Virus record (IMG/VR): IMGVR_UViG_3300035703_000292
Location: 1 to 33,133 of that record
Origin: a virus
Reading direction: 5' to 3' (one strand)
Length of the DNA: 33,133 bases
Below the pieces are notes generated by a model that was not told the DNA's origin, did not search any database, and saw only the letters and a list, made by a program, of their open reading frames with translations. The translations under genes and the position numbers were made by a program. Below are positions 4,156-11,182 of this stretch, piece after piece (the stretch's first letter is position 1; every line of letters starts with the position of its first letter).

Positions 4156-4181
4156 AAAAATCAGCGTTTGACAACGCTGAT
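4156..4181 (-). terminator. Intrinsic terminator overlapping the helicase stop codon
   Basis: On the minus strand, ATCAGCGTT-GTCA-AACGCTGAT is a perfect 9-bp stem with a 4-nt loop followed by TTTT. The stem encodes the last residues of the helicase (ISVVKR) and its TGA stop, so the terminator is built into the coding sequence. Confidence 0.8.
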
Positions 4182-5396
4182 GGCAGGTTGTCCTTGATTG
4201 AACACGGTGTCCACCACCGCCTGCACCTTCTTAGCGGTGCTGATGCCCACAGAAGAGTAGACAGGGATGCAGACCAACCCAAATGCCTTGGTGTAGTCTC
4301 CAAGGGCACCAGGGGCGATTCTGCCGCTCCTGAGCGCCTCTGCGTCGTCCTTGTGCAGGCGGATGACCCGTCCAATGGTCTGGGAGATGCCAATGTAGTC
4401 CATGGACCGCATGAACAGCACTGCCTCCAGACCAGAAACGTTGATGCCCTCAGAGAGGATGCTGTGATGAAGCACAACGAACTTTTTGTCGTTGTCCTTG
4501 CCCCAGGCACTCAGAGTGTCAAAGAACACCTCACGGTTGACCTTGCGTCCATCAATCACGGCACCAGTCTTGGAAGTAATATACATCCAAGAGAATCCAC
4601 GGTCCTCCAGTTGCTTACAGAAATCAGTCTGAGAAACCAGATTCTGAATCTGCTTGGTTGCCTTAGAGCAGACAAGAACCTTGCCCACTTCCTGAGCATC
4701 AATAGTCTGAATCAGGTTCTCACAGTCAACATCGGCAACGATTTGACCCTTAGAGAGCATCTCAAACTGCTGCACCACAACCTTAGGGGGAACAATGAAA
4801 CCACCGTCCACCAGTTCAGGAGCAGGCACGTTACAAATTACCTGACCATAGACTGCACCATCATTCATCCCAGGTTTGGAAATAGTAGCAGAATGCTTAG
4901 GAGTAGCAGTGAAGAAATAGCAGCGGTCAGCAGCAGAAGAGAAGTGCTCCGCAGCAGGGAAAAAGTTACGTTGAACAGAGTTGTGTGCCTCATCAAAGTA
5001 AATGGTATTGACGGGAATATCTGCCTCCTGCAGACGCTGCAGGGAGTTGTAGGTGGTGAAAATCAGTTTGTGACCCTTTGCCTGTTCATACCAAGCACGA
5101 ATCACATTAGGGCGAGTGCTACTAAAGTGATGAGTCTCACCACTGTGAATGTGAAGAACCTGTGCATTAGTGATAAATTCAAGGAACTCACTAGACAACT
5201 GCTCTGCCAGAAGGATGCGTGGCGCCACGACTACAATCGTCTGAGGAGTTTCTTTCAGAAACTCACGAATGGCATCAAAGATAGCAACGTTAGTCTTGCC
5301 ACCGCCAGTTGGGATAATCACTTGACCCTTCAGATACTTGGCAAGGGCATCCAGAGCACGTTGCTGGTGAGGTCGGAGTTGAATCACAGGTCTCAT
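4161..5396 (-). CDS. Superfamily II DNA/RNA helicase (type III-R/UvsW-like), 411 aa
   Basis: A complete SF2 helicase core is visible. A Q-motif-like LRPHQQRALDAL is at residues 7-18. Walker A PTGGGKT is at 29-35. The VVVAPRILLAEQL segment (motif Ia) is near 55-67, FTTYNSLQ (Ib) near 113, DEAH at 135-138, TATPK (motif III) at 163-167, HSILSEGINVSGLEAVLF (motif V) near 311-328, and QTIGRVIR (motif VI) at 339-346. The family couples ATP hydrolysis to strand separation or translocation. T4 UvsW acts in recombination repair and replication-fork processing, and related domains drive type I and III restriction enzymes. No nuclease domain is present. It starts at ATG 5394-5396, only about 6-8 nt downstream of the likely transcription start. 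The DNA is clearly GC-richer than the structural genes. It has its own promoter and terminator, so it is an independent unit. Confidence 0.85.
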   Translation of the reverse strand: MRPVIQLRPHQQRALDALAKYLKGQVIIPTGGGKTNVAIFDAIREFLKETPQTIVVVAPRILLAEQLSSEFLEFITNAQVLHIHSGETHHFSSTRPNVIRAWYEQAKGHKLIFTTYNSLQRLQEADIPVNTIYFDEAHNSVQRNFFPAAEHFSSAADRCYFFTATPKHSATISKPGMNDGAVYGQVICNVPAPELVDGGFIVPPKVVVQQFEMLSKGQIVADVDCENLIQTIDAQEVGKVLVCSKATKQIQNLVSQTDFCKQLEDRGFSWMYITSKTGAVIDGRKVNREVFFDTLSAWGKDNDKKFVVLHHSILSEGINVSGLEAVLFMRSMDYIGISQTIGRVIRLHKDDAEALRSGRIAPGALGDYTKAFGLVCIPVYSSVGISTAKKVQAVVDTVFNQGQPAISVVKR

Positions 5397-5464: not shown

Positions 5465-5713
5465 TTAGGTTAGAGAATAAACTCCAGGTTCCCCTTCATC
5501 TGAATAAAATTTTAGATAGTTTAATTTACGCAACTTTTGAAGATCCGCAAGAACAGTACCCTTAAAACTTTTTTCAGAGGAGTAAAATGGATTTTTTCTC
5601 CTTAAAACTGGAGAAACCAATTCATCCACATCTTTGTATTTGAATTTTTCTCCAGTTTCATAGGCAATTTCCAAAATTGTGAGAATGGTCTTCCAATTTG
5701 TAATTTTTTCCAT
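5465..5713 (-). CDS. Small winged-helix-like protein, 82 aa
   Basis: It starts at ATG 5711-5713, which overlaps the TGA of the ParB-like gene (TGATG), so it is probably translated by reinitiation. The pattern is a helix (WKTILTILEIAYETG), a second helix (YKDVDELVSPVLRR), a recognition-type helix (KGTVLADLQKLRKLNYLKF) and a beta wing ending GVYSLT. The final 'LQ-x-LR-x-x-x-YL-x-F ... G-x-Y-x-L' resembles the C-terminal winged helix of restriction enzymes such as DpnI and Dam-replacing proteins. That is shape similarity only, since no nuclease domain is attached. It may bind DNA, as a regulator or as partner of the ParB-like protein or the methyltransferase. Confidence 0.6.
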   Translation of the reverse strand: MEKITNWKTILTILEIAYETGEKFKYKDVDELVSPVLRRKNPFYSSEKSFKGTVLADLQKLRKLNYLKFYSDEGEPGVYSLT

Positions 5714-6750
5714 CAAAGTTTAACCAGTTCTTCACCATCCATACCACAGATTTGAGGAGCACGATAACCGAACTCCAGATAGTTACGAAGTGAAAAATTC
5801 TCAGAGTTAAACGTCTCAAGAGAAGAAATCACACGATAAACCTCTTGCTTGCGAGTTTCCACAACTTTCCGCAAATCATTACCATCCTTCACATTAGAAG
5901 TGGTGACATAGAAGTGAACCACAGTCTTAATACCTTTGGAAGCGGCATCAAAGAAAATAGGCAGGAAGTCGCGGAGAAACACCTTTTGACTTGCCTCATA
6001 CAGGCGATGCACAACTTTGACGTTTTCTTCCAGTTTGTAATCCGATTCACGAATCACAAAACCTTTGTCAAGAACAAGCATATCAATGGCATCATTACGG
6101 GAAATTGATGCCAGGAATGCAGTCTTACCAGTGTTGTTGAAGATTGCCTTCTTCAGGTTAGTTTGGTTGAGTTTGGTCTCGTTTGTGGCAAACTTCTCAA
6201 CCCAGGCACTCACAAGTTCAGGAGTGATTTCAACACCTTCGTTCTTCTTGCGCTCAATGAACAGGATGCCACGTGCCTTATAGTCTTCATAGGCAGCGGC
6301 AGTTCCCTCAGGACGCGGTTGGTGAAGCAGACCAATCTCATCGATAGCATCACCCACGGAGAAACCTTCTTTGACACGGAAGATGTCAACAGGCATCCAG
6401 GAATAACCATTCTCCTTATACCAACGCAGACGGTGGTTTCCGTTCAACAACCAGTCCATACCTTCCAACATGGATGAAGGGCGCTTACCAAACTTCCAAC
6501 CTTTCGACATCGAACGGTCGACAGTTTCATAAGAGTTCTTGGTAATACCACGGAAACGACCAACGTTTTCCTTACCAGGTTTCTGAATGGTGTTCACATT
6601 CACAGCTTCAGTCTTCACATATTCCAGAGTTTCGTAGTGATCGGGAATAGGATAGGAACGGATTTCTTCTACAAGGCGAAGAACGGCATCATCTTGAGGA
6701 TGTGGTTGATATTCAGAAGGAATTTCAACATTAAATTCAGTAAAAGTCAT
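5713..6750 (-). CDS. ParB/sulfiredoxin-fold nuclease-like protein, 345 aa
   Basis: The ATG at 6748-6750 (MTFTEFNVEIP) is chosen because a GTG at 6823-6825, which would give 25 more residues, lies inside the promoter spacer. The ParB-like domain is seen at about residues 35-125: a helix with VLRLVEEIRSYPIPDHYE, and the signature LNGNHRLRWYKENGYSWMPV near 102-121 (ParB 'GnHR' motif at 104-107). The C-terminal 220 residues are alpha-helical with basic patches and no family I recognise. ParB-like domains bind and sometimes cut DNA or use CTP. In phages they occur as orphan nuclease-like proteins and with methyltransferases. The product may act on phage or host DNA, which is inference from the cassette. 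Confidence 0.7.
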   Translation of the reverse strand: MTFTEFNVEIPSEYQPHPQDDAVLRLVEEIRSYPIPDHYETLEYVKTEAVNVNTIQKPGKENVGRFRGITKNSYETVDRSMSKGWKFGKRPSSMLEGMDWLLNGNHRLRWYKENGYSWMPVDIFRVKEGFSVGDAIDEIGLLHQPRPEGTAAAYEDYKARGILFIERKKNEGVEITPELVSAWVEKFATNETKLNQTNLKKAIFNNTGKTAFLASISRNDAIDMLVLDKGFVIRESDYKLEENVKVVHRLYEASQKVFLRDFLPIFFDAASKGIKTVVHFYVTTSNVKDGNDLRKVVETRKQEVYRVISSLETFNSENFSLRNYLEFGYRAPQICGMDGEELVKL

Positions 6751-6807
6751 TAAAAATTCGGCAATTTGTCCATTTGGGTTTCGGCAGTGTGCCTCAACCA
6801 CGAAAGT

Positions 6808-6836
6808 AATATACGATGAAACCACCGCCTTGTCAA
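6808..6836 (-). promoter_or_regulatory. Sigma70-type promoter for the ParB-like operon
   Basis: On the minus strand TTGACA (6831-6836) and TATATT (6808-6813) are separated by exactly 17 nt. The predicted start of transcription is near 6800, about 50 nt before the ATG at 6750. It lies just after the methyltransferase operon stop (6849). Confidence 0.75.
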
Positions 6837-6848
6837 CCCCTCAACACA

Positions 6849-7250
6849 TTAGAAAAACTTTTCAATACCGATAGGTTTTCCAAATGAATAATCATATTCC
6901 AGAGCATCGGCACAAACATAATGAGGATGATCGGGCGATACTCCCAGACGAGAACACAATTCTTTATGATTATCTTCCATCATTTCAACTGCATATAACA
7001 TGTTATTTAATATATGCTCTTCCGAATGATACTGACAGAGACGGTTTTTAAGAGCAACTAAAAAATTTCCAGACCCTGCAGAATTATCGATAAAAGTACT
7101 ACTAGGATCTTTCAAAATATTCACATCAATATCATCAATCATACTCTCGACGAGTTCTATTGGAGTAAAAACTTCTTGAGTTTCTCGAATTCTTTCATCT
7201 GATCTTTCAATCTCAGATCCAGTTTCCAAATTATGTTTGTTCTTTTTCAT
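6849..7250 (-). CDS. Adenine-N6 DNA methyltransferase, motif X-I half, 133 aa
   Basis: This ORF has the AdoMet-binding half of a gamma-class (Type I/BREX-like) N6-adenine methyltransferase: motif X TQEVFTPIELVESMID at 24-39, motif I FIDNSAGSGNFLVAL at 53-67 (G-x-G), an acidic motif II Glu near 89 (YAVEMMEDN) and motif III near 112-119 (VCADALEYD). The catalytic NPPY is absent and sits in the overlapping upstream ORF (7231-7821). In ordinary gamma-class enzymes NPPY follows motif III, so here it precedes it. The ATG at 7248-7250 overlaps the upstream ORF by 20 nt, so the halves are likely made together and associate. The frame is +1 relative to the upstream ORF, and a -1 slip on the A run would stop at once. 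Confidence 0.7.
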   Translation of the reverse strand: MKKNKHNLETGSEIERSDERIRETQEVFTPIELVESMIDDIDVNILKDPSSTFIDNSAGSGNFLVALKNRLCQYHSEEHILNNMLYAVEMMEDNHKELCSRLGVSPDHPHYVCADALEYDYSFGKPIGIEKFF

Positions 7251-7821
7251 TTTTTTCTTCTAGACACTTAATATACGTAGAGATTAAATCATTCTTTCCA
7301 AAATGTCTTCTACCATTACAACTCGAAGCAACTTCTCTAAATCTCGTAGCAAACTCTAACAAATTTTCTATAACACAAGGATCTCGTACCTTTAAAAAAT
7401 GATGACCTTTTGCATAATGTGTAAAGTTTTCTATTTTAACTCTACCACTGGGTCCAGAACCATATTCACCAATAAACACATCTGCTTCGAATCTTCTTTC
7501 ATAAGGAAGAAACTCAAAATCAGGGTGTTCTCTCATCATTGGAATTTCACCAACTCCTATCTGAAATCTAGATGTATTTCTCACTTCCCAGTATTGTTTA
7601 ACAGCACTAATACCATTGGGAAATGTAGAAGCTTCTAAGTCTTGATCAACAGTCAAATGAAGATGAGATTTGATTTTATTTAAAGAAGAAGGTTTGCGTA
7701 CCGATGTTGGTAACACAAACCTTATATCATCTGTAATTTCTGCCGTCTTATTTAAAAACTTAATTGCAAGATTACCTCCAACACCATATGGAGGATTTCC
7801 TATAGCTAATGTAAACTTCAC
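7231..7821 (-). CDS. Adenine-N6 DNA methyltransferase, catalytic NPPY/target-recognition half, 196 aa
   Basis: It starts at a GTG (7819-7821) and opens with LAIGNPPYG, placing the catalytic motif IV (N-P-P-Y at residues 9-12) at the very N-terminus. The following about 60 residues (IRFVLPTSVRKPSSL, LEASTFPNGISAVKQYW) fit the end of the Rossmann-like catalytic domain. Residues about 80-190 contain a candidate target-recognition region. There is no motif I or X. Together with the 133-aa ORF downstream it makes a complete set of motifs. A TTGACA-17-TAGAAT promoter lies 24 nt upstream. No Shine-Dalgarno is visible before the GTG. Confidence 0.7.
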   Translation of the reverse strand: MKFTLAIGNPPYGVGGNLAIKFLNKTAEITDDIRFVLPTSVRKPSSLNKIKSHLHLTVDQDLEASTFPNGISAVKQYWEVRNTSRFQIGVGEIPMMREHPDFEFLPYERRFEADVFIGEYGSGPSGRVKIENFTHYAKGHHFLKVRDPCVIENLLEFATRFREVASSCNGRRHFGKNDLISTYIKCLEEKNEKEQT

Positions 7822-7844: not shown

Positions 7845-7873
7845 ATTCTACTCATATTTAACCATTATGTCAA
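7845..7873 (-). promoter_or_regulatory. Sigma70-type promoter for the methyltransferase operon
   Basis: On the minus strand TTGACA (7868-7873) and TAGAAT (7845-7850) are spaced 17 nt. It starts four nucleotides after the end of the large fibre gene and has a short leader of about 18 nt to the GTG start. The -35 is a perfect match and the -10 matches in 5 of 6 positions. Confidence 0.7.
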
Positions 7874-7876
7874 GTA

Positions 7877-10800
7877 TTATGATATAGTTGCAATACCAGC
7901 CCATCCACCAGGAAGATAAACTTCAAGTCTATTATTTGTTGTATTGTAAATAATTGATCCAGAACCAATTCCAGAAGATGTCATTGTATTACGATTTGCT
8001 GTCGTCATTCTTGGTGGAAGAAGAGCTTCAAATCCACTTCCATTTGAAGTTAATGTGACAACTCCACAAAAAGTTCCAGTTGTATTAATTCCAAGTTCGA
8101 TTCTAGTTTTTGATGAATTGTAAATTACACTTCCAGGTATTAATGCGAAAGGATCAACTGTGCGGGGAATCATTATATTAGACGCATGTGGATTGTCTAG
8201 CATATACTGACGTTGAGTGTCAGTAAGAACTGGAAGAATTAACGGACTGCCCGATGCACCCAAATCCATACAAGATCTGGGAACATGCGTATTAACTCCA
8301 ACTCTGAATTGATAATTTTGATCATTTAATGATCTAGAATCGATATATTTTATGGTCTCAGATGTTGGATCATTTGGACCCCCAACAAAGGCTGCCGCTC
8401 CACCACTATATCCAATTACTGTCATTCCTCCGTGTACTTGGAGAGTTCCAAATTCAATATTTGGGAGATTAGTTTGTGCTGGTAGTGTTCCACCAAGATT
8501 AGGTCTATTATCATCCAATAATGATATTGAAGAAATAGCAACTTTTGAATTTGCTGATGATAGAACTAGTGAACCATCAATTAAAGTGTCACCTTTAACT
8601 GATAATGATGGATTGATGCTTATAGATGTCGTCAGACCAGGTTCTCCTGGGGATAGTCCGATAAAAACATTGTCCCTGAATGAAGAAATTCCACTTATGA
8701 CTTGGAATGTTCCACCTATTGAAACAACAGAATTTGTTTTTAATTCCCAAAAAGTACTTATTCCTGATCCAGAACTAACATTTCCATTTAAAGTTCCATA
8801 CAATACTGAACTGTTTCCATCAAATACAAAAGCATTTGTTTGACCTACTGTTACGATACCAGATATTCTTGCATTTCTAGATACTAACAAATCTCCAATA
8901 AGATCTAAACCTGCTTGTGGTGAATTATTGTTAATTCCAAGCTTTCCATCATGACCAATTGAAAGTAAACTTAGACCTTTATGAGAAATTCTAAAATATG
9001 AAGATGTATTTATCCCAGTTCCACTGGATAAATCTATAATTATGTCTCCAGATGAAGATTTATTCCCAAGAATCAAATCATCGGAATATGAAATGTATGC
9101 AGAATCATTTCCCATTCCAACAGAACGTCCAAATGAAACCTTAGACTGCAAGTCAGAAACTAATTGCAACTCTAAAGATTGTCCTGATTCTTTTATAATT
9201 TCAATATCACTAGATGGTCCAGTTGTTCCTATACCAATTTTCTTTGTATCAGAATCAACAAAGAATGTTTTAGAATCTTGCCCAACGGTGAGACTATTTT
9301 CTAATTTTACATCTTCAGTAACATTTAAGAATCCATTAACAACAACTTCATTTAGATTGGAGTCTAAAATTAATTTTCCAGTTCTTGTTGAAATAACAGT
9401 TGCTCCGGCAGATCCAATTGTTACTTCATTTACATATGCCTCAGAAAAAGATTTATTAGATGCCCCAAGATATGCACCTTTGTCATTATCGGGAAGAATT
9501 CCAATCTCTAATGTCGAAATACCAACAAAATAAGATTGACCTTTGACTGTAAACTTATCTTTTACTTCTACTAAACCAGTGCTAGAGTTTAAAGATAAAT
9601 CACCACTTCCTGTACTTACTTCATTATCAGATCCGACTCCAACCCTAACGTTATCGACATATAGATTTCCAAATTTCAGAGAAGAATTTCCTAAAGAACC
9701 ATTTTTATCTGAATTTGGAACTAAGTTGCCCTGTACAGTTGTTATTCCAGTAAAATAAGAATATCCAGTTACTGTTAGATTATCATCTATTGTAGTAAAT
9801 CCTGTTGCAGAATCTAAAGAAAGATTTGTGCTTTTTGTATTAATCTCGTTACTTGCACCAACACCAATATTTACATCTCCGGCAAATACACTGGAAAAAT
9901 ATTTTAAATTTGATCCAATAGAAGCACCATTATCAGTATCTGGAAGAATACTTTGATTGACGGTCAAATTATTTTTTACGGTCAAATTATTCTCAACCGT
10001 TACTTCCCCCGTTGAAGAATCTAAAACTAAATTTTCAGATGTTGTATCAATTACATTCGTATTTGAAACTGCAATTCTAACAGAATCTAAATAAATTCCT
10101 GTCGAAGTAATAATACCCGTAGAAAAAGAACCAGAAGTTAAATTTACAACATGAGCATTAGTTGCTGTCAAGACACCAACAGTAGCAGCAACACCAGTGA
10201 TACTTGAAACAATTCCTGTTATTGAATTGAAGTTTCTAATAGTTCCAGCAACACCAGTAATACTAGTAATAATACCTGTAGTACTATTCAGAGTTGCAAT
10301 AGTTCCAATTCCGATGACGGCATTAGTTGCTGTCAAGACACCAACAGTAGCAGCAACACCAGTAATACTAGTAATAATACCTGTAGTACTATTCAGAGTT
10401 GCAATAGTTCCAATTCCGATGACAGCATTAGTTGCTGTCAAGACACCAACAGTAGCGGCAACACCAGTGATACTTGAAACAATTCCTGTTATTGAATTGA
10501 AGTTTCTAATAGTTCCAGCAACACCAGTAATACTAGTAATAATACCTGTAGTACTATTCAGAGTTGCAATAGTTCCTATTCCACTTATATTAATGTTTAC
10601 TGGAAGTCTTGATGCATTTAATGTTCCCGATGATATATTAGAAGCATTTATTGATGTTACTCCAGCTCCGGAACCAACAAAAGATCCAGCTGTTAGAATT
10701 CCAGTTGCATTAATATTTCCAGTAGAATTAATTCCTACACCCACTTCTCCTAAGGTTGGATTACCACCAACTTGAAGATAAAATCTTGGTATTGTGGTTC

Positions 10801-11182
10801 CAATACCGACAGTTCCTGCAGCATATATGCTGGAATATCCTGCTCCAACTCCAGGAAATACCGCCGGATCTACGTCCACCCATTGAGAAGTTGGAATATT
10901 ATATAAACCAGCACCATCACCAAAAAATTTAGCAGATATTGAACCAGTGTTACCTATAATTGTAATACCAGTTCCTATATTAACTTGTGAAAAAGTTGCA
11001 ATACCTGCATATAAAAAATTAGTTGTAGTAAGACCACTTACAGAAACATCACCATAAACATCTAAATCTGATTTCGGAATTGTTGTTCCAATTCCAACCA
11101 AACCTAGTGAATTAACTAGAAAATTATCCTCATCAACTTGTACTCCATTTCTGAAGTTAAATGACTTATTATAATTTGCCAT
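7877..11182 (-). CDS. Giant repetitive tail-fibre/virion structural protein, 1101 aa
   Basis: This is a very long Gly/Ser/Thr/Ile-rich protein built of beta-strand modules of the type 'DNLTVTGYSYFTGITT ... VGIGTT', as in cyanophage tail fibres. The N-terminus (MANYNKSFNFRNGVQVDEDN, then LDVYGDVSVSGLTTTN) is a fibre-attachment type start. Residues about 199-343 form an exact tandem repeat region. Residues about 390-650 repeat a module of roughly 75 residues (IGVGSDNEVSTGSGDLSLNS type). The C-terminus (NTHVPRSCMDLGASGSPLIL, GSVIYNSSKTRIELG, GSIIYNTTNNRLEVYL) looks like a trimeric tail-tip head. It has no S74 chaperone. It starts at ATG 11180-11182 with a late octamer GATAAATA about 17 nt upstream. 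It presumably binds host surface glycans with the upstream 2182-aa protein. Confidence 0.8.
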   Translation of the reverse strand: MANYNKSFNFRNGVQVDEDNFLVNSLGLVGIGTTIPKSDLDVYGDVSVSGLTTTNFLYAGIATFSQVNIGTGITIIGNTGSISAKFFGDGAGLYNIPTSQWVDVDPAVFPGVGAGYSSIYAAGTVGIGTTIPRFYLQVGGNPTLGEVGVGINSTGNINATGILTAGSFVGSGAGVTSINASNISSGTLNASRLPVNINISGIGTIATLNSTTGIITSITGVAGTIRNFNSITGIVSSITGVAATVGVLTATNAVIGIGTIATLNSTTGIITSITGVAATVGVLTATNAVIGIGTIATLNSTTGIITSITGVAGTIRNFNSITGIVSSITGVAATVGVLTATNAHVVNLTSGSFSTGIITSTGIYLDSVRIAVSNTNVIDTTSENLVLDSSTGEVTVENNLTVKNNLTVNQSILPDTDNGASIGSNLKYFSSVFAGDVNIGVGASNEINTKSTNLSLDSATGFTTIDDNLTVTGYSYFTGITTVQGNLVPNSDKNGSLGNSSLKFGNLYVDNVRVGVGSDNEVSTGSGDLSLNSSTGLVEVKDKFTVKGQSYFVGISTLEIGILPDNDKGAYLGASNKSFSEAYVNEVTIGSAGATVISTRTGKLILDSNLNEVVVNGFLNVTEDVKLENSLTVGQDSKTFFVDSDTKKIGIGTTGPSSDIEIIKESGQSLELQLVSDLQSKVSFGRSVGMGNDSAYISYSDDLILGNKSSSGDIIIDLSSGTGINTSSYFRISHKGLSLLSIGHDGKLGINNNSPQAGLDLIGDLLVSRNARISGIVTVGQTNAFVFDGNSSVLYGTLNGNVSSGSGISTFWELKTNSVVSIGGTFQVISGISSFRDNVFIGLSPGEPGLTTSISINPSLSVKGDTLIDGSLVLSSANSKVAISSISLLDDNRPNLGGTLPAQTNLPNIEFGTLQVHGGMTVIGYSGGAAAFVGGPNDPTSETIKYIDSRSLNDQNYQFRVGVNTHVPRSCMDLGASGSPLILPVLTDTQRQYMLDNPHASNIMIPRTVDPFALIPGSVIYNSSKTRIELGINTTGTFCGVVTLTSNGSGFEALLPPRMTTANRNTMTSSGIGSGSIIYNTTNNRLEVYLPGGWAGIATIS
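10155..10589 (-). repeat. Near-identical tandem repeats (165/105/165 nt) in the fibre gene
   Basis: Three tandem copies begin at 10155, 10320 and 10425. Units 1 and 3 are 165 nt and differ by one base over about 150 nt. Unit 2 is 105 nt and lacks a 60-nt internal segment. They encode 55- and 35-residue blocks of the type GIGTIATLNSTTGIITSITG. Such near identity suggests recent duplication or recombination. Confidence 0.9.

Follow-up and report, generated by a model that had tools for sequence, protein, structure and literature searches.

An overlapping cyanophage gene pair that probably encodes a split, permuted adenine-N6 methyltransferase with a constant SAM-binding subunit

Two overlapping genes in a 33-kb piece of a T4-like cyanophage (33,133 nucleotides, the whole stretch of DNA analysed, hereafter the window), related to P-SSM2, P-SSM5 and other Kyanoviridae, very likely encode a two-subunit adenine-N6 methyltransferase, in which a constant SAM-binding subunit (ORF B) would serve exchangeable partners (ORF A) and hold on to the phage sliding clamp by its tail. 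Most likely, A and B together are one m6A enzyme with the motif order IV...X-I, carried on two chains. The classes of amino methyltransferases are defined by motif order, and permutation between classes has mostly been inferred from single chains.

Results

Two overlapping reading frames divide the motifs of a probable single enzyme

The pair and its sequence features are as follows.

7845-7873, minus strand: sigma-70-type promoter, TTGACA-17-TAGAAT, 23 nt before A
7231-7821, minus strand: ORF A, 196 aa, GTG start; opens at motif IV (VKFTLAIGNPPYG), without the SAM-binding half
7786-7797, minus strand: motif IV NPPY of A, residues 9-12
7231-7250, minus strand: overlap of A and B, 20 nt; the B start is in the +1 frame relative to A
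6849-7250, minus strand: ORF B, 133 aa; motifs X, I, II and III, then stop
7161-7175, minus strand: motif X of B, EVFTP, residues 26-30; E26, F28, T29 and P30 invariant in 86 B sequences
7062-7088, minus strand: motif I of B, DNSAGSGNF, residues 55-63; G59, G61 and N62 invariant in 86 B sequences
6984-6998, minus strand: motif II strand of B, LYAVE; acidic E89 invariant; strand 85-89 in the model
6900-6923, minus strand: motif III strand of B, HYVCADAL, residues 110-117; strand 111-113 in the model
6852-6869, minus strand: tail of B, GIEKFF, candidate sliding-clamp-binding peptide; the tail pattern is common among B proteins

ORF B reads TQEVFTPIELV, FIDNSAGSGNF and LYAVEMMEDNH, followed by HYVCADALEYDYSFGKPIGIEKFF and the stop. 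In an identical relative an in-frame stop lies two codons ahead of the A start, and the upstream gene ends only 55 nt ahead of A. A therefore cannot extend in the 5′ direction, and the first half of the domain is truly missing from it; no second SAM half was found near A in the window's ORF list. Neither polypeptide holds a complete motif set, A being without X to III and B without IV.

A sequence-only reading of the window had described both ORFs with their coordinates, lengths, GTG start, motifs and overlap, and every one of these points checked out on reanalysis. The promoter that it had given to the two in common is supported: matches to at least 11 of the 12 consensus positions occur at the same place as the promoter in 49/76 relatives, compared with 0.7% in shuffled sequences. 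A programmed frameshift joining A and B was also considered: it would need a +1 shift at the tail and no slippery site is evident, and it was dropped as a plain overlap suffices, though the relative frame is constant.

B is modelled as a half Rossmann domain and A resembles the remainder

B matches PHROG 4376 (E 1e-72), with a weak, below-cut-off match to N6_Mtase. Its AF2 model, predicted for B alone (pLDDT 92.7, pTM 0.85), is a half Rossmann domain of the form beta1-alpha-beta2-alpha-beta3, and superposes on residues 9-158 of CamA (Z 11.7, 114 residues, 2.5 Å). The NPPY of CamA is at residues 165-168 (PMC8187626), so B ends just short of motif IV.

A matches PHROG 5172 at positions 93-288 of 377 (E 1e-62) and the PADLOC profile MTase_II PDLC03255 at 80-254 of 269 (E 2e-10). 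Compared with the canonical single-chain enzymes of phages rV5, phAPEC8, XbC2 and KIL1, A runs from their NPPF to near their end, and hhalign places it on columns 100-279 of 288 (E 4.4e-27); the match of B to the same canonical enzymes is weak and covers columns 27-72 of 288 (E 6e-4). On a single PADLOC profile, PDLC03273 (432 positions), B covers 42-90 and the A of phage Bellamy 105-413. Searches of solved structures with the A sequence gave chance matches only. A is presumed to be the catalytic subunit, with the predicted target-recognition part included.

These matches support the sequence-only proposal that the two ORFs complement each other within a single N6-adenine methyltransferase of gamma type, with the break between motifs III and IV.

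A natural single chain joins the two parts in the A-B order

ORF084c of Aeromonas phage Aeh1 and its relatives in phages Ah1, PX29 and phiAS5 begin MHFDYMIANPPYS and carry a B homologue at their end; homologues of A and B are thus fused in the A-B order. B matches the C-terminus of these chains with E 4e-35 and A the N-terminus with E 5e-7. A search for single-chain homologues had been suggested from the sequence, and this permuted chain is one. Overall confidence in the Aeh1 model is low (pLDDT 58.5, pTM 0.57), its core strands being better; from residue 1 to about 371-405 it superposes on M.MboIIA, M.RsrI, CcrM and M1.HpyAVI (Z about 10-11 over about 140-170 residues), and the aligned region takes in both ends of a single beta-class domain, that of motif IV and that of motif I. 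Klebsiella phage PKO111, where A has a GIY-YIG domain, and Prevotella Lak phages, with TAG read as Q, have two-gene forms as well.

The class assignment is accordingly mixed. Amino-methyltransferase motifs X, I and IV with NPPY are present as in the gamma class, but the gamma-class order X-I-IV-TRD in one chain is replaced by two chains, IV-TRD and then X-I-II-III. The gene order gives the beta-class order IV-TRD-I, as had been read from the sequence, and the model of the fused Aeh1 homologue superposes across both ends; the single polypeptide and the sequence kinship of the beta class are nevertheless missing, the profile and fold matches of A and B being gamma-type. Gamma-type motifs in permuted order, a feature of the Clade 2 phage methylases, are found here.

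The pair is conserved under purifying selection

The A-B pair occurs in about 90 distinct cyanophage loci and is under purifying selection, with a median dN/dS of 0.106 for A and 0.110 for B (88 distinct pairs). NPPY, EVFTP and the motif I glycines are kept in at least 99% of these pairs. It is found in P-SSM2 (PSSM2_036/037, also with a 20-nt overlap), P-SSM5, S-CAM7 and scores of IMG/VR contigs. In nearly all close IMG/VR relatives of B with upstream room, A directly precedes B, and the two overlap by 8, 14, 20, 26 or 44 nt, always in the identical relative frame. When divergent relatives are included, an NPPY ORF lies within 3.5 kb upstream of 121/130 distinct B genes with enough upstream sequence, against one per 2,631 kb elsewhere in those contigs. 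The NPPY ORFs were found by regular expression, which missed the A that several of the nine exceptions, for example L016, L018, L120 and L161, do have. That B is a mere remnant, one of the outcomes named in advance as fatal to the proposal, is ruled out by dN/dS and conservation, as well as by the association with A. Bacterial relatives of the cyanophage B were limited to one contig, from a metagenome-assembled genome, plus weak plasmid matches.

The tail of B resembles that of the phage DNA polymerase

The tail pattern [LIV]-[DE]-x-F-[FLM] plus at most two residues closes 127/159 distinct B proteins, compared with 6/1,595 other ORFs in the same contigs. Two of these six are themselves methyltransferase chains: the phiAS5 single-chain enzyme, which ends TLEAFF, like B, and a B with another start. 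At the C-terminus of the DNA polymerases from these phages stand NLDSFFS (P-SSM2), NLELFFS (Bellamy) and TLESFFG (S-CAM7). In T4 and RB69, the sliding clamp gp45 is bound by the C-terminus of the polymerase. By this analogy, the L-[DE]-x-F-F tail of B suggests that the methyltransferase docks on the sliding clamp. The tail is not universal, since the B of P-SSM2 itself lacks the full motif (GVLKF).

The pair may belong to a larger cassette

Two genes downstream of the pair recur in its relatives.

5713-6825, minus strand: 370-aa gene, ParB-like by eye (NGNHRLRWYKENGY); counterpart PSSM2_038; often adjoins A-B
4161-5396, minus strand: SF2 helicase (ResIII/DEAD), co-conserved downstream

The 370-aa gene is downstream in 87/151 relatives with room, and searches of Pfam and PADLOC gave no match to it. 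A second sigma-70-like promoter (TTGACA-17-TATATT, 11/12) lies just upstream of it at 6808-6836 (minus strand). The 370-aa gene is followed by a small ORF (5465-5716, minus strand); in P-SSM2 the two are one longer protein, the C-terminus of which is weakly like the DpnI winged-helix domain (E 0.014, below cut-off). On the other side of the pair, a tail-fibre-like protein (7877-11182, minus strand) has near-identical internal repeats at 10197-10775 (ITSITGVAATVGVLTATNAVIGIGTIATLNSTTG).

The helicase is present in 97/97 window-type relatives with room, so the pair may be part of a larger restriction-like or counter-restriction cassette. A more specific version of this idea is that the pair is the modification arm of a phage restriction-like system directed against competing phage or host DNA, and not a simple orphan protector. 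We regard this as a serious possibility, though one we would not favour. It is helped by the constancy of the helicase and by the contents of relatives' cassettes, which include helicases, GIY-YIG-like or PD-(D/E)XK-looking ORFs, or an A fused to a ResIII helicase. In phage Bellamy (gp87; L005:2439-3002) and in 21 IMG/VR loci, A and B are separated by a possible nuclease partner, an unannotated ORF of some 190 aa that has a PD-(D/E)XK-looking signature (GIDG...VIQFKFK) and no Pfam match. In six loci (L221, L235, L246, L251, L254 and L256) A is fused to a helicase-like region to give a protein of about 1,040-1,140 aa, with B next to it; the ResIII match was checked in L221 and L246. Against the restriction-like system, no nuclease was identified beside the window's pair, where the 370-aa neighbour is likewise without a profile match, and genome context alone cannot tell the role.

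Different A genes are exchanged around a constant B

Conservation is far stronger in B than in A, and more distant B genes (54-70% identical) come after very different A genes; in two loci (L238 and L233) two different A genes stand ahead of one B. Three isolates of ACG-2014f have flanks, B included, that are 95-99% identical, and differ in the cassette after B. Syn7803C24 has a helicase and A; Syn7803C90 has a PD-(D/E)XK-looking ORF, another A and a helicase; Syn7803C25 has B, with neither A nor helicase nearby. B is thus the constant part, kept while the cassette of A, helicase and nuclease is swapped or lost among strains, and its pairing with several kinds of A marks it as a general subunit, not half of one particular enzyme. 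Sequences of 60-90 bp that are similar to one another (about 78-89% identical) lie around the cassette borders and between nearby genes in the three ACG-2014f loci (L004, L275 and L276), and could be mediators of the swaps. In the A of Syn7803C24 (L004:4440-5453) a C-terminal segment is duplicated (THPDFEFV... occurs twice), which may represent two recognition units.

Several A relatives (L016, L238, L248, L215 and L253) have a Rossmann-like half with an altered motif I directly before NPPY. In L016, the A that follows this half shares 73% identity with the window's A, whose start codon corresponds to an internal methionine of the L016 protein. A therefore has the look of an enzyme of canonical order from which the SAM half was lost, probably after B had taken over and supplied one in trans. 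A also scores far better against the canonical enzymes of rV5 type (E 4e-27) than B does against the N-terminal half of these enzymes (E 6e-4); from this unequal closeness, A and B may be of different origins.

These findings bear on how the two chains arose. The sequence-only reading had one gamma enzyme cut between motifs III and IV and its halves exchanged, which would amount to fission of an Aeh1-like permuted chain. The permuted single-chain homologue has the same end points, and the B tail also closes the phiAS5 chain. The closest N-extended relatives of A, as in L016, nevertheless show a degenerate SAM half where a permuted-chain end point would be expected, the two parts are unequally close to the same canonical family, and B partners unrelated types of A. 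This part of the reading did not hold up; cut and exchange is the less likely history, and we consider fission unlikely.

Loss of the SAM half from A is, for its part, not the whole account. Many A proteins (L248, L215, L253, L238 and L016; A13 alignment columns 1-65) carry the signature GDPxGxHS...WVWEnDPxHxYxIxQI before NPPY. Motif I is altered in this half, yet it is strongly conserved and hence probably functional, and simple replacement by B leaves it without a role in the long A proteins. B could then be an accessory or regulatory SAM-binding protein, such as a sensor or allosteric partner, of an A that uses its own or another SAM domain. Besides the conserved half of the long A proteins, this would fit with the loci in which about 560 nt with another gene separate B from A, and with the persistence of B where A is missing. 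The window's A, however, is held by strong purifying selection although it has no SAM half and the neighbouring genes supply none, and in chains of the Aeh1 type the SAM half is the B homologue itself, covalently joined. An accessory role for B is accordingly quite improbable.

Discussion

We propose that B folds as the first Rossmann half (motifs X, I, II and III) and takes SAM, and that A would give the NPPY strand and all that follows it, presumed target recognition included. The two would be co-translated from an overlapping early operon, and on assembly the NPPY of A would face the SAM pocket of B, resulting in beta-class connectivity built of gamma-type parts. B would be constant and its A partners exchangeable. 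The L-[DE]-x-F-F tail of B would probably hold the enzyme on the phage sliding clamp, such that new phage DNA is methylated during synthesis. As judged from sequence, the most likely product is m6A in phage DNA, made early from a host-type promoter; a search of the literature for methylation data on these phages found none. The purpose may be protection of phage DNA or service to a phage-borne restriction-like cassette. A broader generalization, that the free-standing half-Rossmann B is a universal clamp-tethered SAM subunit and that specificity is gained by swapping A alone, is one we put forward tentatively, at somewhat short of an even chance.

The canonical single chain, the permuted single chain and the two-gene form all exist in related phages, so that ideas on how the classes evolved can be tested. 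Should B indeed be a shared clamp-docked SAM subunit, it would represent a new route to modular methylation specificity, and A and B would be a ready-made split methyltransferase for tools. The proposal, if correct, also provides a clear hypothesis for many "hypothetical protein" genes (PHROG 4376 and 5172) of abundant marine phages, P-SSM2, S-SKS1, S-CAM7 and Bellamy being among the cultured ones.

Comparison with known systems

Jumbo phages carry circularly permuted adenine methylases of Clade 2 (M.EcoKI-like), described as single chains, with APU01582.1 as an example (Iyer et al. 2021, PMC7824862). They share with the present pair gamma-type motifs in permuted order and occurrence in phages; the part of that article concerned with Clade 2 mentions neither a two-gene form nor a constant SAM subunit or a clamp-like tail. 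Aeh1 ORF084c is presumably a Clade 2-type chain, to which it was likened by motif order.

CamA of Clostridioides difficile (gamma class) resembles the pair in the fit of the B model to its residues 9-158 and in its NPPY-type active site, but is a single chain of canonical order with its own target-recognition domain. The closest full-length relatives of A, the "DNA N6-adenine methyltransferases" of the rV5/phAPEC8/XbC2/KIL1 type, are also single chains, with the canonical order X-I-II-III-IV-TRD. The beta-class enzymes M.MboIIA, M.RsrI and CcrM have the motif order IV...I and the same connectivity, as seen on the model of the single-chain homologue, but consist of one chain, whereas the sequence relatives of A and B are gamma-type. 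M.AquI and M.EcoHK31I are likewise natural methyltransferases of two polypeptides (PMC3404938); they differ in being cytosine-C5 enzymes, unpermuted, and cut near motif IX/X, not between the SAM and catalytic parts. Natural permuted C5 enzymes are known as well (PMC5944983). The open-licence literature yielded no account of an adenine methyltransferase that is both split and permuted and has a constant SAM subunit. Permuted single-chain adenine methylases and two-polypeptide C5 enzymes were thus known already, and what appears to be new is the combination of split and permutation in an adenine methyltransferase with a constant SAM subunit.
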